A program made the translations under genes and the position numbers. This document shows positions 5,429-31,361 of a DNA stretch of 64,000 bases, piece after piece. The notes under the pieces are model-generated. The model was given only the letters and a program-made list of their open reading frames with translations, was not told where the DNA came from and searched no databases. Source of the DNA: Maribacter huludaoensis (GTDB taxonomy: Bacteria; Bacteroidota; Bacteroidia; Flavobacteriales; Flavobacteriaceae); assembly GCF_029350945.1 (NCBI RefSeq), contig NZ_JARKMS010000003.1:310001-374000 (forward strand). The letters are read 5' to 3'. Numbering within the stretch: position 1 is the first letter of the stretch; every line of letters begins with the position of its first letter.

Positions 5429-6580
5429 ATGACAAGAAATGTCTACGCTACATATGATGTTTTCCCTAGCGCAAAAGGTGCATCTACGCATATAAGAGAG
5501 ATGATCAATGTATCTTCACAGCAATGCGATGAATTGCAATTATTCTGCTTACGAGGCAATAGCACCTACCCTGCCGTACAAACAGAAGGTAATATTGTCA
5601 TTAAGCGCTATTACAACGAAGAGAAGATGAATTATTTGGAAAAAGCTTCACTTTTCTCGCAGCAGCTATTCATTGATATCCAAAAAAATAAAGAATCTAT
5701 TCAAATAGGTCATTTTAGAGATGTTTGGAGCGGCATGGGCTTAACCGCCGAGCCTAGTATAAAAACAATTTTTGAAGTAAACGCCCTAACTTCGATAGAA
5801 CTACCTTACAGATACCCTAATTTAACACCCTCTTTTTTAGAAAAACTTAGAGAAATTGAGTTGCAGTGTTTACAAAAAGCTACTGTGATTATTACGCCAT
5901 CCGAAGTAACAAAAACCTACTTAGAAACAGAATATTCCGTTAATGCCGATAAAATTAAAGTGATACCGAACGGGGCACATATACCAGAATCTTACGAAAA
6001 ACCCATTGATGCTCCTGAACAGTACATTATCTACTTTGGCGCCATACAGCCGTGGCAAGGTGTAGATGTATTGCTAAAAGCAATGACGTACTTGGAAGAT
6101 TTTGAAGATCTGAAATTGGTTATTTGTTTGGCGGTAAAAGAAAAAGCTTTTAAACCTTATAAAAAGTTGTTGGAAAAATTAGGCTTAGAAGATTGTGTTA
6201 TTTTAAAATCGAGACTTTCAAAAAAAGACTTGTACAACTACATATATTTCGCAGAAGCTTCAATAGCGCCTTTAAAGGCATGTGATAGAAATATTACACA
6301 AGGTTGTTCTCCACTAAAGATATTAGAAAGCATGGCTTGTGAGACAGTGGTCATTGCAGCTGAATTACCAGTGGTTACAGAATTGGTTACTGAAAAAGAA
6401 GCATTACTTTTTGAGCCTGATAGAGAACAAGATCTTGCACGTTGTATTCGATTTGTATTAGATGAACCGGAACGAAAGAAAACCTACATTTCTAATGCTT
6501 TTAAAAAGGTAAAAAGTACTTTTTTGTGGGATACTCAAAAAGAGAAATTGAAAAACATATACCAAGAACTAACGCTCTAA
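5429..6580 (+). CDS. GT4 family glycosyltransferase
   Basis: A 383-residue GT-B glycosyltransferase. The N-terminal acceptor domain carries the loop PSAKGASTHIREM. The C-terminal nucleotide-sugar domain starts near residue 195 (YIIYFGAIQPWQGVDVLLKA) and has the GT4 acidic motif in SPLKILESMACETVVIAAE. The start is the ATG at 5429; a TTG two codons upstream directly abuts the lemA stop. It probably transfers a hexose from a nucleotide sugar on the cytoplasmic side. Acceptor and sugar are unknown. Confidence 0.88.
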   Translation: MTRNVYATYDVFPSAKGASTHIREMINVSSQQCDELQLFCLRGNSTYPAVQTEGNIVIKRYYNEEKMNYLEKASLFSQQLFIDIQKNKESIQIGHFRDVWSGMGLTAEPSIKTIFEVNALTSIELPYRYPNLTPSFLEKLREIELQCLQKATVIITPSEVTKTYLETEYSVNADKIKVIPNGAHIPESYEKPIDAPEQYIIYFGAIQPWQGVDVLLKAMTYLEDFEDLKLVICLAVKEKAFKPYKKLLEKLGLEDCVILKSRLSKKDLYNYIYFAEASIAPLKACDRNITQGCSPLKILESMACETVVIAAELPVVTELVTEKEALLFEPDREQDLARCIRFVLDEPERKKTYISNAFKKVKSTFLWDTQKEKLKNIYQELTL

Positions 6581-18489: not shown

Positions 18490-18679
18490 ATTTATTTAGA
18501 TTTAAGCAGTGTATACTGCAATTATACTGATATTAGATAAAGATACGTATTGTTTAATAATTTTATATTAAAATTAAACAAAATAACATAATAGCATATT
18601 TCGTTTTCTTACAGTGGTGTAAGTAATAGGCACTACTGTTAAATAAATATTGGTAGAACCAGAATTATTTTAACATTTT

Positions 18680-18697
18680 AAGTTTTAAGTAAAACTT
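18680..18697. terminator. weak A/T hairpin downstream of DUF5995 gene
   Basis: Arms AAGTTTT and AAAACTT enclose AAGT, 60 bp past the leftward DUF5995 stop. The stem is all weak pairs and lacks a clear T-run, so terminator function is uncertain. Confidence 0.25.
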
Positions 18698-18756
18698 ATT
18701 AATTAGAATGTTGTATAGCCTTGGATGATTGGTGTTATAAGAAGTTTCTTGGGCAG

Positions 18757-19473
18757 TTAATCCGCTCGCAACCTAGAAATTACCGTACCTACATTTTTTT
18801 CTTCAAACTTGCTTAAAAATTTTAGCGCGTAGGTAACTATTTTTGATTTTGGAGCTTTTATAAGTTTCCCAAGTTTTAAAACCGTGTTGTCCATTTGCTG
18901 AATAGCTACATCTTGGTGCTCATTCCCTAAACCCCAAAGTAAATTTGCATTTAACCATGAAACTTTGCGGGCTTTAGCCAAACTAAAATTTATAATTTCT
19001 TCATCGGTATTTTTTCCTGCAAAATCAAGTAAAAACAATAATGGAGAAACACGGCTTAGGCGGTCTTGCATTTCGTTCACAATATTACCTAAAATAGAAT
19101 TTACTGTATTGAAATCATTTTCAATATCGGTAATTTGCTTGCTTTGCATTACTGCGCTTGCTGCTAAACCCAAATCAAGATTAATGTGGGTATTGATACC
19201 TAACATGATATGTTGTAGAATGGTTAAAGGGTCATTTTTAGTATCAAATGCAATTTGCCATGATTTACTAATAGGTTGGTTTTCACTATAACCGCGGTAT
19301 GCATCTAAGTAGTAATTGGCAAAGGCAACATCAAAGATTTCCATTCGGGCATTATCTTCAAAATTGCCCAATTGAACTTCTTTAAGTATTTCGGCGGTGA
19401 CTCTTCTGTATAAAAAAGCAAAGTACCCTATGCGATCGTTGTTGGCTATGGCACTATCTATGATTTCGTCCAA
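18757..19473 (-). CDS. DUF5995 family protein, non-AUG start
   Basis: The 238-residue frame from TTG at 19473 matches DUF5995 (RIGYFAFLYRRVTAEI, PLTILQHIMLGINTHINLDLG). The family normally continues N-terminally. Here the frame upstream of the TTG encodes INRPTTIQEVLIQL, which fits the family, but it runs to an in-frame stop at 19519-19521 without any ATG, GTG or other TTG. The true start may therefore be a rare codon such as the ATA at 19516-19518, directly after that stop. Function is unknown. Confidence 0.75.
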   Translation of the reverse strand: MDEIIDSAIANNDRIGYFAFLYRRVTAEILKEVQLGNFEDNARMEIFDVAFANYYLDAYRGYSENQPISKSWQIAFDTKNDPLTILQHIMLGINTHINLDLGLAASAVMQSKQITDIENDFNTVNSILGNIVNEMQDRLSRVSPLLFLLDFAGKNTDEEIINFSLAKARKVSWLNANLLWGLGNEHQDVAIQQMDNTVLKLGKLIKAPKSKIVTYALKFLSKFEEKNVGTVISRLRAD

Positions 19474-19599
19474 TTGAATTAGGACTTCTTGTATGGTAGT
19501 CGGTCGGTTGATCTTTATTTAAAATTTACGATACTGATTTTTAAAATGTCCTTAAAAATATTCATTTCTAATTGTTACGATGCTATATAAATCATGTTT

Positions 19600-20373
19600 T
19601 TATAATTCCCTAATTTTCACATTTCTAAACCAAGACTCAAAATACCAATTCTGAAATGCAATTTTGCCCTTACTAGTTTTTCCGAAATCTGGTGCATCTT
19701 TAAATTTGGAGTTGGCAACTTTATTTTTCCAAGCTATGGAGTTTAAATCTTCTTCGGCTGTAAGTACACCATTAAGATAAAATTGAATTTTTCCGTCTTG
19801 TTGGATTATTCGTGAAGTATTCCATTCCCCTACCGGATTGGCTTCAACAGTATTTAATTGAGGTGACAATCCCCATATGGTACCAGGTCTTTTTAAAGGG
19901 GTTTTGGTATCCATATGTTCTGGTTCTAAAAGTTGATATTCTACACCAGTGTTGTAAGTTGCCTTATATTTGGGAGTTTCTTGGACATTGATAAATATGC
20001 CACCATTACCTCTAAGTGCCATTTGCCAATCGAATTGCAGCTCATAATTTTCATAGTCCTTATCGGTAACTAAATCTCCAAATATTTTACTTTCGTCAGT
20101 AGCATTACAAAATATCATTCCGTCCTTTACTTCCCAAGCCGAGAATTGTGTGGAATCCGGGTTGTTAAAAAGATGCCATCCTTTTAATGACTCGCCATTA
20201 AAAAGTAAGCTCCAACCCTGCTCTTTTTCTATATCCAGTAATTTGTTGTGAACTTTATTTTTTGCGGCTATTTCCTTAGAACGCGAAATCTCAAAAGCTT
20301 TTTTTTTGTCGGTATTACAAGAAGCAGTGATTACTACAGTTAGTACTGAAAAACATATAAAAACTTTGGTCAT
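19600..20373 (-). CDS. DUF1080 (3-keto-disaccharide hydrolase) lipoprotein
   Basis: The 257-residue protein has a lipoprotein signal (VLTVVITASCN) and a concanavalin-like fold of the DUF1080 family. Diagnostic blocks are GWSLLFNGESLKGWHLFNN, ENYELQFDWQMALRGNGGIF, GTIWGLSP and NWYFESWFRNVKIREL. Members hydrolyse 3-keto-glucosides in the periplasm or bind carbohydrate. The specific sugar is unknown. It stands alone on the minus strand. Confidence 0.88.
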   Translation of the reverse strand: MTKVFICFSVLTVVITASCNTDKKKAFEISRSKEIAAKNKVHNKLLDIEKEQGWSLLFNGESLKGWHLFNNPDSTQFSAWEVKDGMIFCNATDESKIFGDLVTDKDYENYELQFDWQMALRGNGGIFINVQETPKYKATYNTGVEYQLLEPEHMDTKTPLKRPGTIWGLSPQLNTVEANPVGEWNTSRIIQQDGKIQFYLNGVLTAEEDLNSIAWKNKVANSKFKDAPDFGKTSKGKIAFQNWYFESWFRNVKIREL

Positions 20374-20546
20374 TGGTTATTTGTTGGAAGTGTAATTAGT
20401 AATACAACAAGTTGAATATAGGACTAAATTACTAATTTAGAATTAATGATAGATAATCTGTAATTCTACAGGTAAAGTATTATTTAAATGAATAGAAATT
20501 AGCCCGTTTAGCAATACTATTTTTAGTTATTTCTACCTGTTCTTTA

Positions 20547-20948
20547 TTATTTAATTACACAACAATTATCAGTAGCACATTTACAGTGATTTCTATTATA
20601 TAAATGCAGGATGATTAAAGCAATGGCCGGTATGTAGATAACAAATTCCGGTATAGAAAAGAGTTCTATTTTTTCATTGATTACTATAGCTGTTAACACT
20701 GTATAAGTACTCCAAAGCATTGGTTTTATCCATTTTAGTGTTGTATTTTTTGTTGACCAAAATATGGCAAGAAATGAAATAGCCAAGAACACGTAATCTA
20801 AAGATTTCCACCACACAGGCGGACCACTGTAAAAGGTTGCTGCACTAGCTTGGACAAGAAATAGAAACGGAGTGGCAATACAATGAACAAGACATAAGGA
20901 ACTGGCAAAAGTTCCTAAAATGTCAGATTTTTGTTTAATTAATAGCAT
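20547..20948 (-). CDS. MerC domain membrane protein
   Basis: A 133-residue protein with four hydrophobic segments and the MerC signature SSLCLVHCIATPFLF near residue 20, where two Cys in the first helix could bind metal. The C-terminus is Cys-rich (CKCATDNCC). MerC proteins carry Hg2+ in mer operons. Bacteroidetes versions sit beside Fur-like regulators and metal uptake genes and probably act in zinc or another metal. Its promoter is shared with the divergent Fur-like gene. Confidence 0.85.
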   Translation of the reverse strand: MLLIKQKSDILGTFASSLCLVHCIATPFLFLVQASAATFYSGPPVWWKSLDYVFLAISFLAIFWSTKNTTLKWIKPMLWSTYTVLTAIVINEKIELFSIPEFVIYIPAIALIILHLYNRNHCKCATDNCCVIK

Positions 20949-20965
20949 TGAGGTTATTGTTAATA

Positions 20966-20976
20966 CAACTAAGTTG
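20966..20976. promoter_or_regulatory. operator 1: CAACT-A-AGTTG palindrome
   Basis: A perfect 5+1+5 inverted repeat immediately downstream of the merC -7 box (20977-20984), around the expected merC transcription start. It shares the CAAC/GTTG half-site with operator 2, consistent with one repressor binding both. Confidence 0.6.
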
Positions 20977-21006
20977 CAAATGTAATTATAATATTTGTTA
21001 ATGCAA
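20977..21006 (-). promoter_or_regulatory. promoter of the merC-domain gene
   Basis: On the minus strand there is a -33 TTG (21004-21006), exactly 19 bases of spacer, then TACATTTG (20977-20984), an exact Bacteroidetes -7 box. The -33 lies inside operator 2 and the start point lies at operator 1. Confidence 0.65.
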
Positions 21007-21025
21007 CAAAGTTGCGTTATATTTG
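20994..21025 (+). promoter_or_regulatory. promoter of the fur-like gene
   Basis: TTTG (20994-20997), a 20-base spacer and TATATTTG (21018-21025) form a consensus promoter. The ATG follows at 21030, so the transcript would be nearly leaderless. Operator 2 overlaps the spacer and the first bases of the -7 box. Confidence 0.65.
20999..21019. promoter_or_regulatory. operator 2: GCAAC-N3-GTTGC palindrome
   Basis: The core GCAAC-AAA-GTTGC is a perfect inverted repeat, extended by TAA/TTA outer arms with one T/G mismatch. It covers both the -33 of the leftward merC promoter and the spacer/-7 edge of the rightward fur-like promoter, so one bound repressor could block both. Geometry suits a Fur-superfamily box. 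Confidence 0.65.
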
Positions 21026-21029
21026 TTTT

Positions 21030-21410
21030 ATGGGAGTAATTAGAAAAACAAAGGCTGTTGAGGTATTACTTAATGAGTTTAGCACAGGCTCAGTGGCCAT
21101 TTCTGCAAAAGCTTTGATAGAGCAATTGGGAGAAATGTTTAATAAAACCACTATTTACCGTGTGTTGGATAAGTTGGAAGATGATGGAGTTCTACACTCC
21201 TTTTTAGGGAAAGATGGATTAAAATGGTATGCAAAATGCAATGGCTGTACCTCTAAAGAACATAAAGATGTTCATCCACATTTTCAATGTTTACAGTGTG
21301 GTAAGGTAGATTGTTTGCCCGTACATGTATCACTTCCCGAAATTCCAAACAGAAAAATAGAGATATCACAATTATTGATACAAGGTAAGTGCGAAGCATG
21401 TTTTGTTTAA
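21030..21410 (+). CDS. Fur family transcriptional repressor (Zur-like)
   Basis: The 126-residue Fur-superfamily protein has an N-terminal winged helix (NKTTIYRVLDKLEDDGVLHS) and a C-terminal metal domain with HKDVHPHFQCLQCGK and a second Cys pair GKCEAC, forming the structural zinc site. The ATG at 21030 is preferred over a TTG at 21012, which lies in the operator. It is probably Zur-like, repressing itself, merC and perhaps the downstream transporter genes. The metal is inferred. Confidence 0.88.
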   Translation: MGVIRKTKAVEVLLNEFSTGSVAISAKALIEQLGEMFNKTTIYRVLDKLEDDGVLHSFLGKDGLKWYAKCNGCTSKEHKDVHPHFQCLQCGKVDCLPVHVSLPEIPNRKIEISQLLIQGKCEACFV

Positions 21411-21549
21411 ATGCATGAAAGTATTCTAAGTAAACGTGGGCATATTCATTTTACAAACGTGCCATACTTCTCATAGTATCCAATTCAGATGCATTTTTAA
21501 GGTGTATTGGTAAAAACAATTATTTTATTATTTATTTTTGAAGCTTCCC

Positions 21550-21852
21550 ATGAAGAACGCTAAGCATCTTATAGCCTTGTTTTATGTTACCTTGATATTG
21601 TTATTCAAGGTTGCAGGTCTTCATTCGCTTACTCACCATACAGATGATACAGATATTCAACATTGTGAAGTCTGTCATATTACTACAGCCGTTAATTTTA
21701 CGCCCTTAGTAGAGGTTGAAACTTCAGCCATACCAAAAGTGGTTTTCTATGTAGTGCCGGCTAAAGTCAGTACCGTAACCCCTGTTGAAGCCAACAATGA
21801 TAGGTTTCTATCTAGTTATCTCTTTACTAGACCACCTCCACAATCGGTATAA
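21550..21852 (+). CDS. small membrane-anchored His/Cys motif protein
   Basis: The 100-residue protein begins with a signal or anchor helix (NAKHLIALFYVTLILLFKVA), followed at once by a metal-ligand-rich stretch, HSLTHHTDDTDIQHCEVCHI. The remaining approximately 50 residues are bland and beta-like and end with RPPPQSV. It resembles DUF2946-type peptides found beside metal receptors but is not a confident match. I chose the ATG at 21550 over a TTG at 21538. It sits between the repressor and the ABC/TonB genes, suggesting a periplasmic metal-binding role. Confidence 0.65.
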   Translation: MKNAKHLIALFYVTLILLFKVAGLHSLTHHTDDTDIQHCEVCHITTAVNFTPLVEVETSAIPKVVFYVVPAKVSTVTPVEANNDRFLSSYLFTRPPPQSV

Positions 21853-22091
21853 TCCATTTGTAATTTTGCTTGTTTCATTTTTGAGATAAGTATTCGGTTT
21901 TCAATCATTTACTAGTTTTTATAACCTCTTATTCCAAGGAGGTTGCAGTGATTGTAACTGATTTATTATATACGGATTCCATACAGATTCTAGCTATTTC
22001 TACTAGAACTTAAATACTTGAACGCTCTGTTTATCATTGCGCAGCACGGTATTTACATCATATACATTCAATTTTAATACATAACATTTAT

Positions 22092-22781
22092 ATGCTTAAA
22101 GCAGTAAACATAACCAAGTCCTACAGCGGGAAAATGGCTTTAAAAGACGTTTCTTTTGAAGTATCAAAAGGTGAAATATTTTGTCTTCTAGGGCAAAATG
22201 GAGCGGGTAAAACCACAACCATCAATATCTTTTTGGGGTTTATAAAAAAAGATGGTGGACAAGCCTTTGTTGGCAATAAAGAAGTAGGTGTCCATGATAC
22301 CAATACGCTTACTGCTTACATTCCAGAAACCGTTCAGCTATACGGTAATATGAGCGGTATAGAAAACCTTAATTTCTTTAGTCGTTTGGCAGGTTTTTCC
22401 TATTCCACGCCAGAATTGGAAGATTTTCTGAGCAAAACAGGTTTGCAGAAAGATGCACAGCACAAAAGACTTTCCTCCTATTCTAAAGGAATGAGACAGA
22501 AAGTAGGTATAGCGGTTGCCCTTGCCAAAAATGCTGAAGTCATTTTTATGGATGAGCCTACTTCTGGTCTTGATCCCAAAGCCACAGCAGAATTTACCAA
22601 AATCTGTAAGGAATTGGCAGCTATGGGCAAGGTAATATTTATGGCTACACATGATATTTTTAATGCTGTAGAATTGGGTACTACGATCGGAATAATGAAA
22701 GAGGGTGTTTTAGCGCAAAAAATGAAAGCTAGCGAAATAAACGCCAATGAACTTAATCAACTTTATTTAGAAACTATTTAA
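22092..22781 (+). CDS. ABC transporter ATP-binding protein
   Basis: A 229-residue ABC ATPase with Walker A GQNGAGKTTT, signature SSYSKGMRQKVGIAVAL, Walker B VIFMDEPTSGLD and switch His in MATHD. It is of the ABC-2 (NosF/CcmA-like) type. It is followed after 4 bp by a TonB-dependent receptor and then by two ABC-2 permeases that would complete the transporter. Confidence 0.93.
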   Translation: MLKAVNITKSYSGKMALKDVSFEVSKGEIFCLLGQNGAGKTTTINIFLGFIKKDGGQAFVGNKEVGVHDTNTLTAYIPETVQLYGNMSGIENLNFFSRLAGFSYSTPELEDFLSKTGLQKDAQHKRLSSYSKGMRQKVGIAVALAKNAEVIFMDEPTSGLDPKATAEFTKICKELAAMGKVIFMATHDIFNAVELGTTIGIMKEGVLAQKMKASEINANELNQLYLETI

Positions 22782-22785
22782 TATA

Positions 22786-25284
22786 ATGAGACACTATATA
22801 ACAACCATCCTACTAATGCTTATGTGCCATGCTGCATTGGCTCAAATGAACATTAACGGAAAAATTACCGATAATAACGCATCACCTATTTTTGGTGCTA
22901 CCATTTCATATGTACTTGAAAACACGACCAAAAAAGGAGGAACGGTTACCGCAGAAGATGGTAATTTTAGTTTTGAGCTTTCTACAACCGGTAATTATCA
23001 AATTACGGTAAGCTACATAGGTATGAAAACCCTTAGCTTTCAAAAATCATTCAATCAAATGACCGATTATGATTTGGGCACAATTAACCTTCAAGAAAAT
23101 ATAGAGCAATTACAGTCCGTTGAAGTCATAGGTAGAGCAAGAACGGATTACAATAGTGATTATTCTTTTTCGGCAACAAAAGTAGCCATTGCCAATAAAG
23201 AATTGCCACAAGCCATAACTTCGGTTACCAAAGAGTTAATTGCGGACCGATTAGCTTTTCAAGTTCCAGATGCCGTAAAAACGGTTAGTAACGTATCGGT
23301 TACGGGCTTGTACAATCATTATAATATTCGAGGGATTACGCAGGCAGATGATGGGCAGGTATTGAACGGTATGCGTACCCGTCAATATTACTTTCTACAG
23401 CCTATTACTTCTCACTTAGAACGTGTTGAAGTTATAAAAGGTCCGTCTTCGGTTACTTTTTCTAGCGCAGATCCAGGGGGTACCGTAAACATGGTAACCA
23501 AAAAACCATTGACAGAAAAGCGTAGTGAGGTTTCTTTGACAACAGGTAGCTTTGGAACGTTAAGAGCCACGGCAGATTTTACAGGTCCGTTGAACGAATC
23601 TAAAACCCTTCTATATCGTTTTAATGCCGCAATTCAAGAAGCAGATTCGTTTAGAGATGTGGTAAACAACAATGCCATTTTGCTCTCGCCTTCTTTAAGT
23701 TATATACCGAACGAAACAACTTCGTTGAATGTTGAAATGATCTATAGTGATGCGGTAGGTAATTTAGACAGAGGGCAGCCGATCTTTGGGGCTATCAATG
23801 GTAATTATGATATCAATAGTACGCCAATTACAATGAACGTGGGTGCATCTACCGATCACTACAAGAACAAAGAGTTCATATTCATGGCGAACTTCAGTAA
23901 AAAGTTATCTGACAATTTAGGTTTCAATGCGCAGTTTATGAAGCAAACTTGGGATGAGGATCTAGCTGAGCATAGAGTGGATGGAACTGCCGTAGATATT
24001 GATGGAAATGTTATTCCTACCCTAGCAAGAATGCGATATGATGAAAGACAGCAATACTGGGAGACCGATAATTTTAGCACCTATTTTACGTATGACATTA
24101 AAACAGATAGGATTACCAATAAAATATTGGTTGGTTACGATGGTACACGTTGGGAAAGAAAGATTGGAGCAGGATTCTTAAGAGCCAGAAGGTATTTAAC
24201 GGTTGATGGCGGTCAAGCAAACTACGACCCTGCTAATCCTGGTAATTATCAGCAAATGGTGGTAGATGGTGTAACCATGCCTGTACCTGCTGTGCCTCAT
24301 TTTAACTTTGCAGACCCCTTTAACGGTGCTAGAAATACAAATGCTTATAATTTGGCAGAATTAAGTATTCCTGCAAACTTGAATACTTCAAATGGTTTCT
24401 ATATTCAAAATCAGTTTAAAGTCGGCAAATTTTCAGCTTTAGTGAATTTAAGATATGAACGGTTTACTGATATTTTTGATTATGAAGGTGATGAGCAAGA
24501 GTTTACAAATGACGCCATTGTACCTAGGTTTGGTCTAACCTATGAAGTTTCTAATACCGTAAGTGCATATGCTACCTATTTAGAAGGTTTTCAACCGCAT
24601 ACAAACACCGTATCGTTATCACCAACTGCTGAAGGTTTCTTTTGGTCCACTTCACCAAGCAGATTTGACCCACTGGAAAGTAGTTTAACGGAATTTGGGG
24701 CTAAAGGAGAGTTCTTGAACGGAAAAATATTTGCCAACCTAGCCATATTCAATATTACCCAAAAGAACATTTTATTAGGGGATACCTATGATTTGGACAA
24801 TCTGACGACTAGAGGTGAGCAAAGAAGTAGAGGGTTTGAAATGGATGTATCCGGTTATATAGCATCAAATTTTCAACTTACCGCTTCTTATGGGTATGCA
24901 GATGCCGAGATTGTAGAAGATGCCATAGAGGAATTTATTGGCGAGCCAATTGGTGGGGCCCCTAAGCATAATGCAACTATTTGGGGTAGATATGATTTTA
25001 CGAACAACACTTTAAAAGGTATTGGAGTTGGCTTGGGCGCCCAATTTATGGATGAGCGCTTTACATGGTATAATCCAACATACGACACGGATAGATTGCT
25101 GTTACCATCTTATACCGTATTTGATGCAGCGGTATATTACAAGCCTAACAACACAAGTATGCAATTAACGCTAAAAATCAATAATTTATTTGATGAAACC
25201 TATTGGTTGGGTGGGCTAAACCCCTCAAGATTAGGACCTGGTGCACCAAGAAATATATTATTGAACGCCACTTATAAATTTTAA
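22786..25284 (+). CDS. TonB-dependent receptor (siderophore/metallophore type)
   Basis: The 832-residue outer-membrane receptor has a signal peptide (ITTILLMLMCHAALAQ), a carboxypeptidase-regulatory-like N-terminal domain (about 22-105), a plug domain with GLYNHYNIRGITQADDG and RVEVIKGPSSVTFSSADPGG, then a 22-strand-type barrel. The last strand ends in Phe (NILLNATYKF). Plug features match siderophore receptors. Its position inside an ABC cassette downstream of a Fur-like gene suggests uptake of a chelated metal. The ligand is unknown. Confidence 0.93.
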   Translation: MRHYITTILLMLMCHAALAQMNINGKITDNNASPIFGATISYVLENTTKKGGTVTAEDGNFSFELSTTGNYQITVSYIGMKTLSFQKSFNQMTDYDLGTINLQENIEQLQSVEVIGRARTDYNSDYSFSATKVAIANKELPQAITSVTKELIADRLAFQVPDAVKTVSNVSVTGLYNHYNIRGITQADDGQVLNGMRTRQYYFLQPITSHLERVEVIKGPSSVTFSSADPGGTVNMVTKKPLTEKRSEVSLTTGSFGTLRATADFTGPLNESKTLLYRFNAAIQEADSFRDVVNNNAILLSPSLSYIPNETTSLNVEMIYSDAVGNLDRGQPIFGAINGNYDINSTPITMNVGASTDHYKNKEFIFMANFSKKLSDNLGFNAQFMKQTWDEDLAEHRVDGTAVDIDGNVIPTLARMRYDERQQYWETDNFSTYFTYDIKTDRITNKILVGYDGTRWERKIGAGFLRARRYLTVDGGQANYDPANPGNYQQMVVDGVTMPVPAVPHFNFADPFNGARNTNAYNLAELSIPANLNTSNGFYIQNQFKVGKFSALVNLRYERFTDIFDYEGDEQEFTNDAIVPRFGLTYEVSNTVSAYATYLEGFQPHTNTVSLSPTAEGFFWSTSPSRFDPLESSLTEFGAKGEFLNGKIFANLAIFNITQKNILLGDTYDLDNLTTRGEQRSRGFEMDVSGYIASNFQLTASYGYADAEIVEDAIEEFIGEPIGGAPKHNATIWGRYDFTNNTLKGIGVGLGAQFMDERFTWYNPTYDTDRLLLPSYTVFDAAVYYKPNNTSMQLTLKINNLFDETYWLGGLNPSRLGPGAPRNILLNATYKF

Positions 25285-25286
25285 GT

Positions 25287-26726
25287 ATGCGAAAGAATGT
25301 AATTGTATTATTGGCCCGGCAACTATGGCAAGATGCCTTTAGGTCTAAGGTCATGTTAGTAGCATCAACGCTAATGCTGTTCTTGTTGCTTTTTTCTGCT
25401 TATACCGGGTGGGAGAATTATCATGACCAGAATTTTACGAGAGATGAAATTCAAGAGGAAGTCCAAGAAAGTTGGGAAAATAATCCAGATAAACACCCGC
25501 ATAGAATGGCCCATTACGGGTCGTTCGCTTTGCGGTTAAAACATGTGTTAAGTGTTTTTGATCTAGGTATGGAAAACTTTGTAGGTAACGCCGTTTTTCT
25601 AGAGGCGCATAAACAGAATACCGTAAACTTTTCAGAAGCTAGTATGTCTACCGGGTTGTTGCGTTTTGGGGAAGTGAGTATGGCTATGCTGTTAAAAGTA
25701 ATAGTCCCTTTATTAATTTTCTATTTAGGATTTGCCACCATAGCAAGGGAACGGGAAAACGGAACATTGAAACTTTTGATAGGTCAAGGTATAACACGTA
25801 AAGAAATAGTTTTCGGAAAATGGCTTGGTTTGTGGAGTCTTTCCTTGTTGTTTCTGGGCGCTATATTTTTGGTACTGTTGTTGTTTGTACTAGTGGAATC
25901 TCATGATACCATGCACTCAGATAGCATATTTAGATATCTGGTACTACTATGTGCTTATTTAATGTTCTTTGGAATTTTAAGTGCCATTACTATTTTGATT
26001 TCAGCCTTTAGTGCATCGGCAAAAGGTGCCTTGGTAAAATTGTTGGGTATTTGGTTATTGTTCGTAGTTATTGTTCCAAAATCATTACAGGCAGTTGGTT
26101 TTTACCTATACCCTACCCCTTCTAAAATTGAAATGGAAACTGCGGTGGAACATGATCTGGCCCAGATAGGAGATAGTCATGATCCTAATGACCCACACTT
26201 TAAAGCATTGAAAGATTCTGTATTACGTGTACATAACGTAGAAAAGGTTGAAGACCTTCCTTTTAATTATGGTGGTTTTGTGATGTCTAAAGGAGAAGCT
26301 ATGAGCACTAAAGTGTATTTAAAGCATCAAGAAAATTTGTACAAAGTGTATAATAAGCAGAATAATGTAGAACGTATGTCTGCATTCATCAATCCATATA
26401 CCGCGATCAAGAATTTGTCTATGGCATTCTCAGGAACCGATTTTCAATCTTTTCTACACTTTAAGGACAAAGCGGAAACATATCGTTTTACCCTCGCCCA
26501 AGAAATGAATCAGCTGCAAATGGATTTAATTCCGAACAAGGGAAAAGCCGGTCCTAATACCATTTCAAGTAATTATTGGAAAGAATTTCCGCCCTTTGAA
26601 TATCATTTCTTAAGCATTGCGGATGTATTTAAAAATGAAGTCATTTCATTGCTAGCTTTAATGTTATGGGGAGTATTATCCGTTTTTGCATTGTTAAGAT
26701 TGTCAACAAACCTAAAAGCCATATAG
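25287..26726 (+). CDS. ABC-2 type permease with DUF3526-like periplasmic domain
   Basis: The 479-residue membrane protein has a first helix at about 20-37, a large extracytoplasmic loop containing the His-rich NPDKHPHRMAHYGSF, then helices near 130-270 with the ABC-2 coupling sequence TIARERENGTLKLLIGQGIT. A second soluble loop (about 280-455) precedes the final helix. It starts 2 bp after the receptor stop. With its partner it would form the ATPase-driven complex. Confidence 0.85.
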   Translation: MRKNVIVLLARQLWQDAFRSKVMLVASTLMLFLLLFSAYTGWENYHDQNFTRDEIQEEVQESWENNPDKHPHRMAHYGSFALRLKHVLSVFDLGMENFVGNAVFLEAHKQNTVNFSEASMSTGLLRFGEVSMAMLLKVIVPLLIFYLGFATIARERENGTLKLLIGQGITRKEIVFGKWLGLWSLSLLFLGAIFLVLLLFVLVESHDTMHSDSIFRYLVLLCAYLMFFGILSAITILISAFSASAKGALVKLLGIWLLFVVIVPKSLQAVGFYLYPTPSKIEMETAVEHDLAQIGDSHDPNDPHFKALKDSVLRVHNVEKVEDLPFNYGGFVMSKGEAMSTKVYLKHQENLYKVYNKQNNVERMSAFINPYTAIKNLSMAFSGTDFQSFLHFKDKAETYRFTLAQEMNQLQMDLIPNKGKAGPNTISSNYWKEFPPFEYHFLSIADVFKNEVISLLALMLWGVLSVFALLRLSTNLKAI

Positions 26727-28067
26727 ATGTATAGATTATTATTTAAATCATTTTTTAGGACAAGAATATTTATGGTTAGCCTGGCTTTATTGTTGACCGT
26801 TGGTGTTATAGGTATTTTAATTGGGAAGCAATATTTAGTTAAACAAGAAAAAACCATTGCCGCCGCTCAAGTTTTTCAGGAAGAAAGCATTAAAAAGAAC
26901 ATTCAGTATCATAGTGAGGACTTAGGGCTGCTTTTGTATTATTTGAGGTTTACCTTAATTAAGAAACCCGAAAATATTAGTGCTATTTCCATTGGGCAGA
27001 GTGATGTCAATCCGTTGTTACAAGCGGTAACCATTCGCGCTTTAGAGGGGCAAAAATACGATACCGATTTTGAGAATCCTTCATTGCTCATTTCTGGCAA
27101 TTTAGACCTAGGTTTTGTTATTATATATCTCTTTCCTTTGATATTGATAGCCATGACCTTTAATTTATACTCAGAAGAAAAGGAATTGGGTACATGGCGC
27201 ATATTGGCGGCACAAACATCGGGGAAAGCACAATTTTTATTTAAAAAACTTCTGGTTAGAATAGTGTTTGTATTTGCTGTGCTGATATTCTTAATGATTC
27301 TGGCAAGTACTATTTTACAAATTCCGATGAATGCCAATTTTTGGGCAATTTTTCTTCTAAGTGTATTGTATATTTTGTTTTGGAGTGCATTGTGTTTTTG
27401 GATGGTTACTTTTTTAAAGAATTCCAGTTTTAATGCTTTGGCGCTAATTTCGATCTGGGTGGTATTAACTATTTTATTTCCTGCCTTAGTGAACAATTAT
27501 GTGATAAACACCTATCAAGTACCAGAAGCGTTAGATGCCATGGTAGAGCAAAGAGATGGGTATCATGAGAAATGGGATATGAAAAAAGATATTACCATGA
27601 ACGGTTTTATAGGCTCATATCCACAATTTATAAAATATGAAGTTCCTGAAGATGAATTTAGTTGGATCTGGTATTACGGCATGCAACATATGGGAGATAT
27701 GGCAGCCAAGGAAACTAGCCAAGAAATGACGGATAAGATAATGCTTAGAAATAAGGTAAGTGAACAAATTGCGCTATTGGTGCCTACCATGCATGCACAG
27801 TTAAGCTTTAATAAACTTGCAGGTACGGATATGGTGAGCCATTTGTCGTTTTTAGAGGCGCTGACCAATTTTCATAAAAATTTACGTGAAGGTTTTTATA
27901 CCAAGATATTTGATCATAAATCTGCAGATGGAGTAGATTGGCAAAATTACAAAGCTAAATTTTACGAATTAGATTATGGCTTTAGCTGGCTAAAGCTTCT
28001 ACTGCCCTATTTATTAACGTCAATAATTATTGGGGTCTTAACAAGTATAAACTTAAGAAGATTATAA
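26727..28067 (+). CDS. ABC-2 type permease, DUF3526 family
   Basis: A 446-residue permease with the same plan as its upstream neighbour: a first helix (FMVSLALLLTVGVIGILIG), an extracytoplasmic loop, a helix cluster with EEKELGTWRILAAQT, a second loop and a last helix. ATG directly follows the upstream TAG. The pair probably acts as a heterodimer with the ATPase at 22092. A strong terminator follows at 28073. Confidence 0.85.
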   Translation: MYRLLFKSFFRTRIFMVSLALLLTVGVIGILIGKQYLVKQEKTIAAAQVFQEESIKKNIQYHSEDLGLLLYYLRFTLIKKPENISAISIGQSDVNPLLQAVTIRALEGQKYDTDFENPSLLISGNLDLGFVIIYLFPLILIAMTFNLYSEEKELGTWRILAAQTSGKAQFLFKKLLVRIVFVFAVLIFLMILASTILQIPMNANFWAIFLLSVLYILFWSALCFWMVTFLKNSSFNALALISIWVVLTILFPALVNNYVINTYQVPEALDAMVEQRDGYHEKWDMKKDITMNGFIGSYPQFIKYEVPEDEFSWIWYYGMQHMGDMAAKETSQEMTDKIMLRNKVSEQIALLVPTMHAQLSFNKLAGTDMVSHLSFLEALTNFHKNLREGFYTKIFDHKSADGVDWQNYKAKFYELDYGFSWLKLLLPYLLTSIIIGVLTSINLRRL

Positions 28068-28072
28068 AGAGC

Positions 28073-28103
28073 AAAAAGGCTGGAAGAAATTCTGGCTTTT
28101 TTT
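28073..28103 (+). terminator. intrinsic terminator of the metal-transport operon
   Basis: A 13-bp stem with G-U pairs (AAAAAGGCTGGAA pairing with TTCTGGCTTTTTT) is closed by a GAAA tetraloop and ends in a run of seven T. It starts 6 bp past the last permease stop. Confidence 0.8.
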
Positions 28104-28328
28104 ATAACATAAAGCTTTGTCATTAGATATTTTACACATAATATTTTTATTTTATGTACAAGGTAATGTTTTATGTTTAGAAGCTATTACATTGTAATGA
28201 CACTAAATAAGCGGCATTTTAGGTGTAATAATTACATATAAAGATACTTTTACGCCTTTAAACAGAATTAATTTTTCATTCTAAGTCAATGGGGTACTTT
28301 TCGTCTTTCAAACCTCAAACTCAAATTA

Positions 28329-28703
28329 ATGAAACTCGAATTAGTAATTGTTGATGATTCACCTCTTTGGTTGTCATTGGCAGAAAAGCTCGCTAAAACC
28401 CACCCAATGGTCGGTAAGGTTACGACCTTTGAAGATTCTTATGACGCTTGGGTGCATATACAGATCAACAAGCCTCAGTTTGTTATTTCAGACATAGAAA
28501 TGCCTGGCATGAACGGGCTCTCATTTTTAGAAATGTTCAGTTATCGGTTACCTTTTATTTCAACCTCTACAAAACAAGAATTTGAAGAAGTTGCAAGAGA
28601 ATTAGGCTGCATAGATTTTATAACCAAACCCTTTTCTAAGACAGACATACATCATTCTATAGATTCTGTTTATTATCACATGTATGGTAAAAAGGTTGGG
28701 TAG
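28329..28703 (+). CDS. stand-alone response-regulator receiver protein
   Basis: The 124-residue receiver domain has acidic residues D9/D10, phosphoacceptor D55 in VISDIEMPGMNGL, hydroxyls at S78/T79 and K100 in FITKPF. There is no output domain. No histidine kinase is adjacent, so it probably serves a distant kinase or acts by protein contact. Confidence 0.88.
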   Translation: MKLELVIVDDSPLWLSLAEKLAKTHPMVGKVTTFEDSYDAWVHIQINKPQFVISDIEMPGMNGLSFLEMFSYRLPFISTSTKQEFEEVARELGCIDFITKPFSKTDIHHSIDSVYYHMYGKKVG

Positions 28704-28828
28704 TTAATTCATTGATTATCTCTACATATTATAGATGACAATCATTTCTTAATTATAGACATAATATTTAGATTGGTTATATTTACTTTTTTAGGTAGAT
28801 AATTATATTTTAAAACGTATACATAACC

Positions 28829-29578
28829 ATGACCCCCGAAAAAGATATTTTTAGTAGTAAAGAAGGCAGATGGGATTTTGCAATTGCGATTATCGTAATA
28901 GCTTTATTCTCTATTTTTATTTACCTGTATATATTTACCAAAGAAGATAAAATTGCAGATTCTACTATTGAATTGGAAACCACTGAAGAATCACCTTTAC
29001 CTACTTCTTATCATGCTAAAGAACGAACATATGTATATTCTAGTTCAGATATTTATGTACCGGTAACAATACCTGCAAAAGATGCTATAGACCCTAACAA
29101 AATAATGGCAGTCGTTATTTCCGATACGACAATTACTGAAGCCGATTTTGAAAACGATAAGTTAGATGCTATTATTGAGAAAGAAACCTTTAAAAAACAG
29201 CCAAGTCTAGCAACATCAGAGTCTCAAGAAATAATGTTGGATTCTGTTGTGGAAAATAATGGGTCTACGGTGATAGAAGAGACGGTTATTTCAAAAAAAG
29301 AAGTGCCAACAAAAATATCTGATAAGGCTATGGTTTCTAGTCCAGAAACCAAGTTTGAATGTATGGCAATGGTGGGGGTTTTTAAAGATGAAAATAATAT
29401 ATCTGCTATTGTCAAAAGATTAAAAGACTTAGGGTATACACATACACAAGGTTCTTACCCAAAAGGATTAACCTATGTAAGTGTACCGGTTGATTGTGCT
29501 AATGAATCGAAAAAGAAGGAACTAATTTCAGAATTAAATAAAGCTTTCGGTATAGATTCTTATGTTAAAAAGCGGTAG
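28829..29578 (+). CDS. membrane protein with C-terminal SPOR-like domain
   Basis: The 249-residue protein has a short cytoplasmic start, one membrane helix (FAIAIIVIALFSIFIYLYIF, 17-36), a long acidic, Ser/Thr-rich periplasmic linker and a C-terminal domain of about 75 residues. This domain reads as a SPOR repeat (MVGVFKDENNISAIVKRLKD, then a GY-x-H-x-Q turn). SPOR domains bind denuded peptidoglycan at division sites. Cys176 and Cys223 flank the domain and may pair. Confidence 0.65.
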   Translation: MTPEKDIFSSKEGRWDFAIAIIVIALFSIFIYLYIFTKEDKIADSTIELETTEESPLPTSYHAKERTYVYSSSDIYVPVTIPAKDAIDPNKIMAVVISDTTITEADFENDKLDAIIEKETFKKQPSLATSESQEIMLDSVVENNGSTVIEETVISKKEVPTKISDKAMVSSPETKFECMAMVGVFKDENNISAIVKRLKDLGYTHTQGSYPKGLTYVSVPVDCANESKKKELISELNKAFGIDSYVKKR

Positions 29579-29896
29579 TGCTTTAAGCATGTTCAGTAAT
29601 AAGTAACTATTTCAAAATGAATAAGGTTGCATAGTTTGCATTCTTCATCTGCGCGTTTTAATACTTCACAATTTAATTTTTTTTAAAATTGAGATTAGTG
29701 TAAACAAATTGGTTTTTCTAAAGACCGTATTGCTTAGTACATTGCTACCTGTAACAACTGAAAATTGCTTGTTCGTTTCATTTATTATTTTGTTTTTAAA
29801 GGTGTTAGGCCTGTGTTCAAGGAATTTTTTAATAATAATTCATGATATTAGTATAATTTAAGATACAAGTGGTCTTTTAGTTTATAATAACAAAGA
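29579..29896. other. 318-bp intergenic region upstream of the FecI-like gene
   Basis: AT-rich spacer with no ORF of interest. A CAATTT...AAATTG inverted repeat around a T-tract near 29679-29701 could terminate the SPOR-like gene. The 3' half should carry the sigma-factor promoter, but no exact TAnnTTTG box with a matching -33 is visible near the ATG. Confidence 0.5.
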
Positions 29897-30415
29897 ATGG
29901 GAAAACCATCGGTTTGCGAAGAAAGCGTTTACAACGAGATTTATAAAACCCATGCCAAAGATTTGCGCAATTACCTGTATTATAAGTTTGGGAATATGCA
30001 AAGGGCAGAAGATATTGTTCATGATTCATTTGTAAAATTATGGTCTAAGTGCAGTACGGTAGTTTATGAGAAAGTTACCGGTTTTTTATACAAAATATCC
30101 CGTAACTTAATGATAGACACTTTACGTACCAATAAGGTGGCCTTAAAATTTGAAAAAGGATTGGTGCAAGCGCATGATAATGAAGACCCTTATTTTACAC
30201 TAAGGACTAAAGAGTTTCAAATAAAATTGGAGTCCGTAATATCAGCTTTACCAGAAAAGCAACGCGAAGCTTTTTTAATGAATAGAATAGATAAACTTAC
30301 GTACAAAGAAATAGCGGTTAGATTAGAAGTTAGTGAGACCGCTATTGAAAAACGTATTTCAAAGGCCTTGATAAAATTGAACAGCATTGCGGAAATTAAA
30401 GATTTTTCTATTTAG
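29897..30415 (+). CDS. FecI-type ECF RNA polymerase sigma factor
   Basis: A 172-residue ECF sigma factor with region 2 (DLRNYLYYKFGNMQRAEDIV, HDSFVKLW, FLYKISRNLMIDTLR) and region 4 (LPEKQREAFLMNRIDKLTYK, EIAVRLEVSETAIEKRISKA). It is followed after 37 bp by a FecR anti-sigma gene and a TonB-dependent receptor, the standard cell-surface signalling trio. Confidence 0.93.
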   Translation: MGKPSVCEESVYNEIYKTHAKDLRNYLYYKFGNMQRAEDIVHDSFVKLWSKCSTVVYEKVTGFLYKISRNLMIDTLRTNKVALKFEKGLVQAHDNEDPYFTLRTKEFQIKLESVISALPEKQREAFLMNRIDKLTYKEIAVRLEVSETAIEKRISKALIKLNSIAEIKDFSI

Positions 30416-30452
30416 GCGGTTGGTTAAATAGCTTTAAAAACGTATTGGTAAT

Positions 30453-31361
30453 ATGAGCAAGCATTTAGAAGATAATAACTTAATTGCCCGTTGGATGGAT
30501 AATCGTTTAAGTAACGAGGAGAAAGAACAATTGAAAGGTTCGGGCGAACTGGATGCGCTAAAGACCGTAATAGATGAAATTGATACTTGGAAGGTAAAAC
30601 CATTTGATGTGGATAGGGGTTTGACCAGGTTAAAAGAAGCGAACAAGACAGTTGTTCCTATAAAAAATAACAACAAAAATTGGTTGCGTATAGCAGCAAG
30701 TATAGCGCTATTACTTTCCTGTGGTTTAGTCTGGTATTTTATGGCAAATAGCGCCACGACCGTTGTTACCGATATAGCGGAGAAAAAAACGATAGAATTG
30801 CCAACAGGCTCTTTGGTAGAACTAGATGCTGCGTCAAGCATAGCCTATAATAAAAATGATTGGGAAAATAGCAGGATGCTTACCCTTTCTGGCCAAGCTT
30901 TTTTCAATGTTACCAGTGGTGCTCCTTTTGTAGTAAAAACCAATACGGCGCAAGTAACGGTTTTGGGCACGCAATTTAATATACGCACACAGAACAATGA
31001 TTTTACGGTATTTTGCTATGAAGGTAAAATAGAAGTAACACATCTAGGCAGTTCAGAAATAATTACCAAGGGTCAAAGTGTAATGCTTACTGGTGGAAAA
31101 CTTCAAAAGGCAACACATAAATCTTCTGGTCCTGAATGGTTGAACGGTGTAAGTACCTATGATAAAACTCCCCTTAGTTCTGTAATTACCGATATAAAAA
31201 GATATTACAATGTAGAAGTTAATTTACCTGAAGAGTATAAATCACTACAGTTTACGGGTACGGTTGCACATAATGACTTAGCAAACTCATTAAGCGTTAT
31301 TTTTACTACAATGGAAATTCCATATAGTCTTCAAGATGGCAATACCGTTATATTTGAATAG
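30453..31361 (+). CDS. FecR-type anti-sigma regulator
   Basis: The 302-residue protein has an N-terminal cytoplasmic sigma-binding region, one membrane helix (WLRIAASIALLLSCGLVWYF), the FecR domain (IELPTGSLVELDAASSIAYN, VLGTQFNIR) and a C-terminal DUF4974/STN-like domain (PLSSVITDIKRYYNVEVNLP). It passes the receptor signal to the adjacent sigma factor. Confidence 0.92.
   Translation: MSKHLEDNNLIARWMDNRLSNEEKEQLKGSGELDALKTVIDEIDTWKVKPFDVDRGLTRLKEANKTVVPIKNNNKNWLRIAASIALLLSCGLVWYFMANSATTVVTDIAEKKTIELPTGSLVELDAASSIAYNKNDWENSRMLTLSGQAFFNVTSGAPFVVKTNTAQVTVLGTQFNIRTQNNDFTVFCYEGKIEVTHLGSSEIITKGQSVMLTGGKLQKATHKSSGPEWLNGVSTYDKTPLSSVITDIKRYYNVEVNLPEEYKSLQFTGTVAHNDLANSLSVIFTTMEIPYSLQDGNTVIFE

Follow-up and report, generated by a model that had tools for sequence, protein, structure and literature searches.

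The window, by which we mean the whole 64,000-nucleotide stretch of Maribacter huludaoensis DNA that was analyzed, contains a merC gene divergent from a fur-like gene and then, on the fur strand, genes for a small His/Cys protein (the "peptide"), an ABC ATPase, a TonB-dependent receptor and two ABC-2-type permeases, PermA and PermB, ending in a terminator-like hairpin (Table 1). These seven genes and the terminator had been named in a preliminary description of the locus, and both held up (Pfam matches above cut-offs for all but the peptide; predicted hairpin at 28073-28102). Beyond the matches in Table 1, Pfam found DUF3526 (110.4 bits in PermA and 82.5 in PermB; cut-off, 25) and ABC2_membrane_2 (96.2 and 59.4 bits; cut-off, 27.2) in the permeases and a TonB barrel (135.9 bits; cut-off, 27) together with a plug domain in the receptor. 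The NCBIfam models nearest to the ATPase, drrA and GldA, were both below cut-off; its PADLOC matches were set aside as those of a generic ATPase. The hairpin has seven U's at the end of its 3' arm. A consensus terminator scan missed it because the U run sits within the stem, and the failure of the same scan to list a terminator in the gaps at 21411-21549 and 21853-22091 is therefore weak evidence that the gaps lack one. In a scan for sigma-70 promoters, the real sequence (35) did not clearly exceed its shuffles (31.6).

Table 1. Features of the cassette, with window positions
Feature	Position	Strand	Evidence
merC: MerC-family membrane protein, Cys-rich tail HCKCATDNCCVIK	20547..20948	-	PF03203, 74.3 bits (cut-off 27.6)
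Second Zur-box-like palindrome, merC side, TAATACAACTAAGTTGCAAAT	20961..20981		22.3 bits, 14-box matrix built from other loci
Zur-box-like palindrome directly 5' of fur, TAATGCAACAAAGTTGCGTTA	20999..21019		25.9 bits; top site in 64 kb
fur: Fur-superfamily repressor, very probably Zur; 126 aa, CxxC pairs	21030..21410	+	PF01475, 28.9 bits (cut-off 23.1)
Putative separate promoter for the peptide gene, TATTTTTG	21533..21540	+	T-rich element recurring in relatives
Small His/Cys protein, secreted or membrane-anchored, HxxxH...CxxC...RxPP	21550..21852	+	Motif comparison
ABC ATPase, ABC-2 exporter type	22092..22781	+	PF00005 (ABC_tran), 92.9 bits (cut-off 25)
TonB-dependent receptor, siderophore-receptor class, N-terminal CarboxypepD_reg domain	22786..25284	+	TIGR01783, 257.6 bits (cut-off 223.5)
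PermA: NosY-like ABC-2 permease with DUF3526 domain; conserved His72, His76, His108, His298	25287..26726	+	Pfam, alignments, NosY kinship
PermB: second NosY-like ABC-2/DUF3526 permease; His280, Asp284, His383	26727..28067	+	Pfam, alignment, Foldseek
Terminator-like hairpin at cassette end	28073..28102	+	-12.6 kcal/mol, z -3.85, 0/200 shuffles as good

The intergenic region between merC and fur holds the palindrome TGCAACnnnGTTGCA, and the copy nearer to fur overlaps an element at 21018-21025 that follows the promoter rule TAnnTTTG. The core of the box, GCAACnnnGTTGC, occurs at 3 places in the 4.24-Mb genome (1 for the backwards control), and a search of 120 genomes of the family with TGCAACnnnGTTGCA gave 49 matches, compared with 6 for the control read backwards. 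Loci were obtained for 30 of the 37 positive genomes, one site each. A Fur of the window's type was found in 11 of the 31 box loci (two of them the same site), and MerC accompanied it in 8 of these 11; 10 of the 31 (L083, L085, L088, L093, L097-L100, L105 and L109), in which the box lies inside genes, in a repeat or near genes with no known metal link, may be chance matches. With the 14-box matrix, sites of at least 13 bits were present in 17 of 40 DUF3526 loci from the phylum, these being 40 of the 59 other genomes that carry DUF3526. Measured by the same matrix and threshold, 45 of 80 named relatives have a box within 5.6 kb upstream of PermA, whereas the reversed-sequence control gave 0 of 80. 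One locus with a box upstream, L203, comes from Flavobacterium johnsoniae.

The genes that adjoin the box in relatives point to zinc. GTP cyclohydrolase I lies next to it in three loci (L138, L166 and L080), HisI and a COG0523 protein in L091, and DUF1826 in L058; its neighbor in L209 is a COG0523 protein to which the ZigA model gives 552 bits (cut-off, 600), and that in L101 is carbonic-anhydrase-like (115 bits; cut-off, 350). By comparison among relatives, the Fur-like gene thus has an operator in common with zinc-homeostasis genes (folE, hisI, COG0523 and DUF1826). In the Fur-like protein, PF01475 covers only residues 27 to 94, the NCBIfam equivalogs for Fur and PerR scored far under cut-off (24.8 versus 146), and the PDB matches are weak, the best being a Fur (8j6w, E 0.0005), followed by 3mwm (E 0.0009), which we take to be a Zur, and by the zinc regulator FurB (2o03) at E 0.02. 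Because zinc-starvation markers accompany its box in relatives, we concluded that, very probably, this regulator is Zur and the cassette a unit for acquiring zinc, and we regard a role in zinc starvation as highly likely. The metal uptake context proposed earlier would on these grounds be specifically one of zinc. In the open-licence literature, as far as it was available, we found no published Zur box for Bacteroidota, and the term "DUF3526" had no match in that literature.

The cassette is not confined to close relatives, which the preliminary description had named as a ground for refutation: peptide, ATPase, receptor, PermA and PermB follow one another in this order elsewhere in Flavobacteriaceae, and other Bacteroidota and Pseudomonadota have the same components. 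Of 11 loci of the same family in the phylum sample, 10 preserve the order ATPase-receptor-PermA-PermB, as do 2 loci of another family. Relatives of the window's Fur (at least 45% identity, clearly separated by score from other Fur types) occur in 21 of the 120 family genomes and DUF3526 in 19, the two together in 12 (Fisher p 7.9e-7, an optimistic value because the genomes are related). That the Fur/Zur-type regulator, MerC, the receptor and the export-type ABC proteins belong together, as had been supposed, was confirmed by loci in which they form one block at the same box: Fur-box-MerC followed by ATPase-receptor-PermA-PermB in L138-L140 and L190, Fur-box-ATPase-receptor-PermA-PermB-MerC in L235, and the layout of the window plus folE in the Maribacter loci L166 and L167. 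MerC also stands 3' of PermB in L142, as it does in L235. The 784-amino-acid protein of another locus, L051, is an outer membrane barrel of a family other than DUF5916.

The peptide matched no Pfam or NCBIfam family at E 0.1, PF11162 (DUF2946) included. An alignment of 16 homologues picked by eye (A4), one of them a proteobacterial DUF2946 protein, has seven invariant columns, H25, H29, C39, C42, R94, P96 and P97. Of 80 loci, 53 have a small open reading frame with this signature in the 6 kb preceding PermA; in the control, the far-end 6 kb read on the opposite strand, the count was 0 of 80. In Eleftheria terrae, a DUF2946 protein occupies the same place, with a TonB receptor, an ATPase and two DUF3526 proteins; its HxxxH, CxxC and RxPP positions are those of the peptide, although the window's peptide has no PF11162 match and only the motif is common to both.

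ATP turnover by NosDFY is thought to drive a hand-over of copper in the periplasm. Among solved structures, NosY comes closest to PermA in sequence (E 3.8e-10), and in a Foldseek search with the predicted single chain, it filled the first 11 places (best E, 1.5e-4), with modest TM-scores (0.26 to 0.35 by query and 0.44 to 0.63 by target). The predicted single chain of PermB gave no match below E 0.001 and a likeness to NosY at E 0.02. The resemblance to NosDFY (PDB 7o0y, 7qba and 7znq) thus extends to the sequence and the predicted fold of NosY, whereas the cassette holds no nosD, nosL or nosZ gene, has two different permeases with extra DUF3526 domains, and stands in a zinc rather than a copper context. 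His72, His76 and His108 of PermA are invariant in all 24 sequences of alignment A1, which comprises the window's PermA and 23 of its 51 homologues (24 of 52 sequences). In A2 (50 sequences including the window's), their invariance is by construction, because these residues are in its search patterns, a circularity of which A1 is free. His280, Asp284 and His383 of PermB are invariant in 41 sequences, the window's included (A3). The conserved histidines of the permeases are predicted to sit in periplasmic parts.

Taken together, these results make it probable that the cassette serves zinc acquisition during starvation under the control of Zur, and we favor a NosY-like hand-over in the periplasm as its ATP-driven step. 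Zinc-bound Zur would occupy the TGCAACnnnGTTGCA boxes at the divergent promoters of fur and merC, departing when zinc is scarce; the receptor would then carry zinc, probably chelated, across the outer membrane, and in the periplasm or at the inner membrane, the HxxxH/CxxC protein and MerC would hold it or relay it. The ABC ATPase would power PermA and PermB as a NosY-like pair, the DUF3526 domains of which would reach into the periplasm bearing the conserved histidines, and ATP turnover would reshape these domains such that zinc is stripped from its chelate or carrier and handed on, with no export of a solute. Granted a role in zinc starvation, such a hand-over is quite possible, though we would stop short of calling it probable.

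Alternatively, the ABC-2 pair may import zinc, free or as a chelate, into the cytoplasm and so replace ZnuABC, as has been assumed for znuGHI of Caulobacter crescentus. In that organism, a Zur-repressed TonB receptor and ABC-2 transporter, znuK/znuGHI (CC1517-CC1520), was reported in 2014, with Zur repression supported by electrophoretic mobility shift assays (EMSA) and reporters; the mutants presented in the available text are of receptors and not of znuGHI (PMC4176598). Like the window, znuK/znuGHI combines a TonB receptor, an ABC-2 ATPase and two ABC-2 permeases with a link to Zur, and the view that the cassette is of a little-described kind needs correcting, because this type of system was already described there. 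The Caulobacter operator differs from the window's box, and the available text names no peptide, MerC or zur beside znuK/znuGHI (PMC4176598). The Caulobacter control genome has PF12040 (DUF3526) over cut-off (a genome-level match, for which CC1519 and CC1520 are candidates) and is not among the genomes positive for PF01297. Among six proteobacterial plasmid cassettes, the best Caulobacter-type Zur site outscored the reversed control and lay close to the ATPase gene in two, L158 (16.2 bits; control, 14.6) and L161 (12.0; control, 7.5), both just 5' of that gene; the others gave 10.8 versus 10.2 (L160), 9.1 versus 9.6 (L162), 10.6 versus 10.6 (L244) and 9.3 versus 15.0 (L245). The Novosphingobium locus L158 recalls znuK/znuGHI in that receptor and ATPase diverge around a similar site, the one of 16.2 bits, at 6134 in the gap at 6048-6218.

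Cytoplasmic import would also fit the lack of a match to ZnuA (PF01297) in the window's genome, and a classical binding-protein importer is, as the preliminary description had it, absent from the cassette. The lack of a periplasmic binding protein, however, argues against import by the ABC-2 pair, and the genome holds two ZIP-family genes that could perform this step. Moreover, replacement of ZnuABC by way of mutual exclusion was not seen in the family, where 9 of 19 DUF3526-bearing genomes have ZnuA, as do 44 of the 101 that lack DUF3526; in the phylum the depletion is weak (19 of 60 versus 155 of 335; one-sided p 0.024, rising to 0.10 if the 21 genomes with weak DUF3526 scores are moved to the group without it). 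True import, given a role in zinc starvation, appears somewhat unlikely.

A second question is whether the cassette itself answers to Zur. The preliminary description had assigned it to a Fur/Zur regulon, which agrees with the boxes at the fur and merC promoters. Before the peptide and ATPase genes, the best sites in the window reach 6.4 and 2.9 bits with the 14-box matrix. Because the window's boxes are at the fur and merC promoters only, Zur control of the cassette is plausible by way of read-through from fur. The window's subclade may instead have left the Zur regulon, so that the cassette is constitutive or responds to another metal and its adjacency to fur and merC is incidental. Of the 14 named relatives closest to the window, 11 show no box in the roughly 19 kb examined per locus; the Chryseobacterium and Aquimarina loci show none either, and in genomes G182 and G412, the fur/merC/box block is on a different contig from the cassette (L156 and L157). 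A T-rich element like TATTTTTG precedes the start codon in L037, L056, L146 (less exactly) and L147; a conserved regulatory motif at this place in the unboxed subclade was considered and rejected, the sequence being T-rich and promoter-like only. Against departure from the regulon, the cassette lies directly 3' of fur in the window, L166 and L167, with no terminator listed in the gap (by the scan that also missed the hairpin), and in L168, which belongs to the same subclade, a box of 19.5 bits stands immediately 5' of the peptide gene. Furthermore, the window's receptor groups (100/100) with six others, the nearest being that of L140 (77%), and five of the six belong to boxed cassettes. We consider it unlikely that the subclade has left the regulon.

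ABC-2 proteins are mostly exporters, and pairs of an exporter and a receptor are usual for metallophores. The ABC-2 pair could accordingly export a zincophore, or recycle the emptied chelate, while the TonB receptor, which belongs to the siderophore class, retrieves the loaded form. An export-type ABC system in a Zur regulon has precedents in Pseudomonas aeruginosa PA4063-PA4066 and Vibrio zrgABCDE; PA4063-66 originally carried an importer annotation, and its Zur-regulated MacB transporter, PA4064-65, was then proposed to export pyochelin-cobalt, according to the available text (PMC11481552). Those systems have MacB/FtsX domains, whereas Pfam found no MacB_PCD or FtsX domain in the window's permeases, which are of the ABC2_membrane and DUF3526 type; the loci L141 and L157 do have permeases of MacB/FtsX type next to the Zur-like gene. 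The cassette may also process a metallophore, an idea of the preliminary description. Next to the cassette, where most neighbors are unannotated, we recognized no gene for metallophore biosynthesis; NosY serves in copper handling, and simple export would need no extra domains bearing conserved histidines. Given a role in zinc starvation, we hold export to be improbable. Resistance to mercury or another toxic metal, suggested by the MerC domain, is highly improbable, as relatives group MerC, GTP cyclohydrolase I, the Zur-like gene and an uptake receptor at one box in what is a starvation set, and no MerA or MerR was recognized by eye among the open reading frames of 18500-30500.

If the periplasmic hand-over that we favor is correct, the DUF3526 pair and its ATPase may, as a tentative generalization, be a zinc counterpart of NosDFY that moves no solute across the membrane, with the peptide as zinc shuttle and the receptor as supply, forming a general second route for zinc across Bacteroidota and Pseudomonadota. 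The cassette ties the puzzle of what export-type ABC proteins do in metal uptake to a solved fold, that of NosY, and it provides candidate metal ligands as well as a candidate Zur operator and regulon for Bacteroidota.

The seven genes that the preliminary description had placed in this cassette are all present, and Pfam and NCBIfam name them as MerC, FUR, an ABC ATPase, a TonB-dependent receptor of the siderophore class (above the NCBIfam TIGR01783 cutoff) and two ABC-2 membrane domain plus DUF3526 proteins (PermA and PermB), the 100-residue peptide matching no family in either collection. The gaps from the ATPase through the receptor and PermA to PermB are 4, 2 and 0 bases, and the 3' arm of the hairpin that follows ends in seven U. 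A consensus scan found no terminator in the fur-peptide gap (139 bases) or the peptide-ATPase gap (239 bases); it also missed the hairpin after PermB, which weakens a minor argument. Beyond the hairpin, in 28329-31361, lie further reading frames that we named by eye.

Features of the cassette and its 3' flank, in window coordinates (start only for flanking reading frames)
Feature	Position	Strand
merC	20547..20948	-
Zur-box-like palindrome	20961..20981	
Zur-box-like palindrome	20999..21019	
fur	21030..21410	+
Peptide	21550..21852	+
ATPase	22092..22781	+
TonB receptor	22786..25284	+
PermA	25287..26726	+
PermB	26727..28067	+
Hairpin	28073..28102	
Response-regulator-like ORF	28329	
ORF	28829	
Sigma-factor-like gene, paired with the next	29897	
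FecR-like gene	30453	

The cassette is a real, conserved unit. DUF3526 (PF12040) is present in 60 of 395 sampled genomes of the phylum, mostly as two matches, and we examined neighborhoods from 40 of the 59 genomes other than the window's. The order ATPase-receptor-PermA-PermB occurred in 10 of the 11 same-family loci and in two loci from a second family of the class. A third family had receptor-PermA-PermB-ATPase at two loci, and more distant loci of the phylum retained ATPase-PermA-PermB. Beyond the phylum, the gene order in Eleftheria terrae is DUF2946-receptor-ATPase-DUF3526-DUF3526, and in Comamonas a small hypothetical gene precedes receptor, ATPase and two DUF3526 genes. A scan of named genomes gave at least 571 relatives, the best 80 of which were kept as test loci; the closest four among the matches listed, labeled Maribacter (two), Zobellia and Cellulophaga, are 85 to 87% identical over PermA. 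The PermB frame is split by decay or sequencing error in L056/L176 (Flavobacterium sp. 7A) and L146 (genome G412), where the cassettes are otherwise complete. Several distant cassettes adjoin a DUF5916/CBM9 protein (by Pfam in L047, L048, L050, L057, L058 and L072; by homology in L143, L144, L149, L152 and L153), some with a separate TonB receptor upstream (L144); beside sister-clade DUF3526 permeases, this protein has ~730 to 765 residues.

The two palindromes of the merC-fur gap score 25.9 and 22.3 bits against a matrix built from 14 boxes, 13 of which adjoin window-type fur genes (products at least 45% identical to the window's) of other genomes, the remaining one a flavoprotein gene of the window's genome. 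Two training loci (L081 and L094) adjoin cassettes (L138 and L141); none is among the 40 phylum loci nor, apparently, among the 80 named ones. With this matrix, sites of at least 13 bits were found in 17 of the 40 phylum loci, including 8 of the 11 same-family ones, the control having been run on the named loci only. There, 45 of the best 80 of at least 571 loci had such a site in the 5.6 kb preceding PermA (reversed-sequence control, 0/80), and 52 of all 58 sites fell in this interval, which makes up 29% of the sequence; reversing the sequence of the whole 80 loci gave two. In 120 genomes of the family, the 15-mer palindrome had 49 matches, as against 6 for its backwards-read control, and 11 of 31 surrounding loci carried a window-type fur gene, 8 of these with merC too.

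The exact core occurs three times in the window's genome (backwards control, once): in the merC-fur gap, within an lpxD-like ORF, which we take as chance, and 100 bases 5' of a pyridine-nucleotide-disulfide oxidoreductase gene named by Pfam (G000:C8:643856-643870; L077/L106). The latter gene may belong to the zinc regulon. A homolog in genome G182 is also boxed (25 bits; L156, 10117), and similar flavoproteins stand upstream of ATPase-PermA-PermB in L060, L061 and L071 (by eye; L060 by Pfam). Elsewhere, the palindrome accompanies a gene for a small Cys-rich protein in the vicinity of RND-efflux-like genes (L086, L087, L090, L104, L107 and L108) or a different Fur type adjoining a TonB-receptor-like gene (L092 and L095); a similar operator may serve a second Fur lineage, perhaps in connection with efflux. 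In L105 (1470-1706), eight box-like matches at 32-base intervals were rejected as a short tandem repeat rather than regulatory sites.

Among the 120 family genomes, 21 encode a window-type Fur, 19 encode DUF3526 and 12 encode both (Fisher p 7.9e-7, inflated by shared ancestry), and in 6 of these 12 (the window's and L138 to L142) the two lie within ~7 kb. L138 to L140 read Fur, box, MerC, one extra gene and ATPase-receptor-PermA-PermB, L142 reads Fur, box and ATPase-PermA-PermB-MerC, and Maribacter L166 and L167 have the window layout, extended by a GTP cyclohydrolase I gene that follows merC (Pfam for L166). Beside a Zur-like gene and box, L141 and L157 also carry MacB/FtsX-type permeases and alkaline-phosphatase-family genes (Alk_phosphatase and PhoX, respectively).

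In the window itself, no box precedes the peptide or the ATPase (best scores, 6.4 and 2.9 bits), and of the 14 closest named relatives (best 80 of at least 571), 11 have no box in the sequence examined, two have upstream fur/merC boxes and one, Flavivirga L168, has a 19.5-bit box directly 5' of the peptide. These missing boxes are a weak point in the case for regulation. Two genomes with unboxed cassettes carry the fur/merC/box block on a separate contig (L156 and L157). The receptor and permease trees conflict: the window PermA groups (100/100) with four unboxed cassettes (L037, L056, L146 and L147), and the receptor, nearest to that of L140 (77%), groups (100/100) with five boxed ones (L045, L046 and L138 to L140) and unboxed L153, which weakens a minor argument. 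We take the conflict to reflect an exchange of receptor between lineages, an argument for their having a common substrate.

Several box neighbors point to zinc. GTP cyclohydrolase I adjoins boxes in L138, L166 and L080; phosphoribosyl-AMP cyclohydrolase, with COG0523 after it, adjoins one in L091; the COG0523 protein beside the L209 box is near the ZigA zinc-chaperone model (552 bits; cutoff, 600); and DUF1826 is beside the box in L058 and farther along in L209. Paralogs such as these are zinc-sparing responses. The L101 box adjoins a gene distantly related to metal-independent carbonic anhydrase (115 bits; cutoff, 350), possibly encoding a zinc-sparing backup enzyme; L102 resembles L101 in this gene.

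In Caulobacter, EMSA and reporter data show znuK (a receptor) and znuGHI (an ABC-2 ATPase and two permeases) to be repressed by Zur, and mutants of receptors fail when starved of zinc (PMC4176598). The receptor and ATPase genes of Novosphingobium L158 diverge, matching what the shared Zur site suggests for znuK/znuGHI, and between them lies the top-scoring Caulobacter-type site of that locus (16.2 bits; reversed control, 14.6); in L161 the best site (12.0 bits; control, 7.5) is 44 bases 5' of the ATPase gene. These sites add a little support, and four other proteobacterial loci had no Caulobacter-type site notably above control. The window cassette can be seen as a variant of znuK/znuGHI that also has the peptide, MerC and an adjacent zur. 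Mutual exclusion of ZnuA and DUF3526 was not seen in the family, which we counted against our reading, although ZnuA is absent from the window's genome, which carries two ZIP-type genes. We conclude that the cassette very probably serves zinc acquisition under a Bacteroidota Zur.

The closest solved relative of PermA is NosY (E 3.8e-10). The AlphaFold models of the two permeases (mean pLDDT, 85 and 88) retrieved NosDFY-entry chains with Foldseek in places 1 to 11 for PermA (best E, 1.5e-4; TM-score, 0.26 to 0.35 by query length and 0.44 to 0.63 by target length) and 1 to 5 for PermB (best E, 0.02). DUF3526 is modeled as a mainly helical addition that, by the usual topology, would be periplasmic. 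In an alignment of the window PermA with 23 of 51 homologs, His72, His76 and His108, the last in a low-confidence model loop, were invariant (24/24) and His298 was kept in 92%. Of 54 Bacteroidota loci, 50 matched a loose pattern of the first histidine motif, 41 the second motif (EAHxxN) and 38 both in one frame. Four of six proteobacterial loci had the first motif; L158, L162 and L244 had both at the window spacing of 35 residues if E-G-H is allowed, and L160 and L161 only the second. The loose search found neither in the distant DUF3526 pairs of L073 to L076, which have a ~500-residue protein upstream and probably a different function. HxxxH, CxxC and RxPP are conserved in 16 members of the peptide family picked by eye, and a small ORF bearing this signature precedes PermA in 53 of the best 80 of at least 571 loci (control, 0/80).

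Because of the NosY kinship, the conserved PermA histidines and these peptide motifs, we favor a mechanism in which the ABC-2 pump would hand over zinc in the periplasm, driven by ATP. The rivals are that the pump exports or that it imports; counting against hand-over, export has a parallel in another Zur-regulated export-type ABC system, PA4063-66, which is proposed to export a pyochelin-cobalt complex (PMC11481552). Our literature searches turned up no DUF3526 permease whose function had been tested, and of the papers listed only PMC4176598 bears on the matter. It is this pump mechanism, with periplasmic hand-over of zinc as the favored form, that is the interesting part of the finding.
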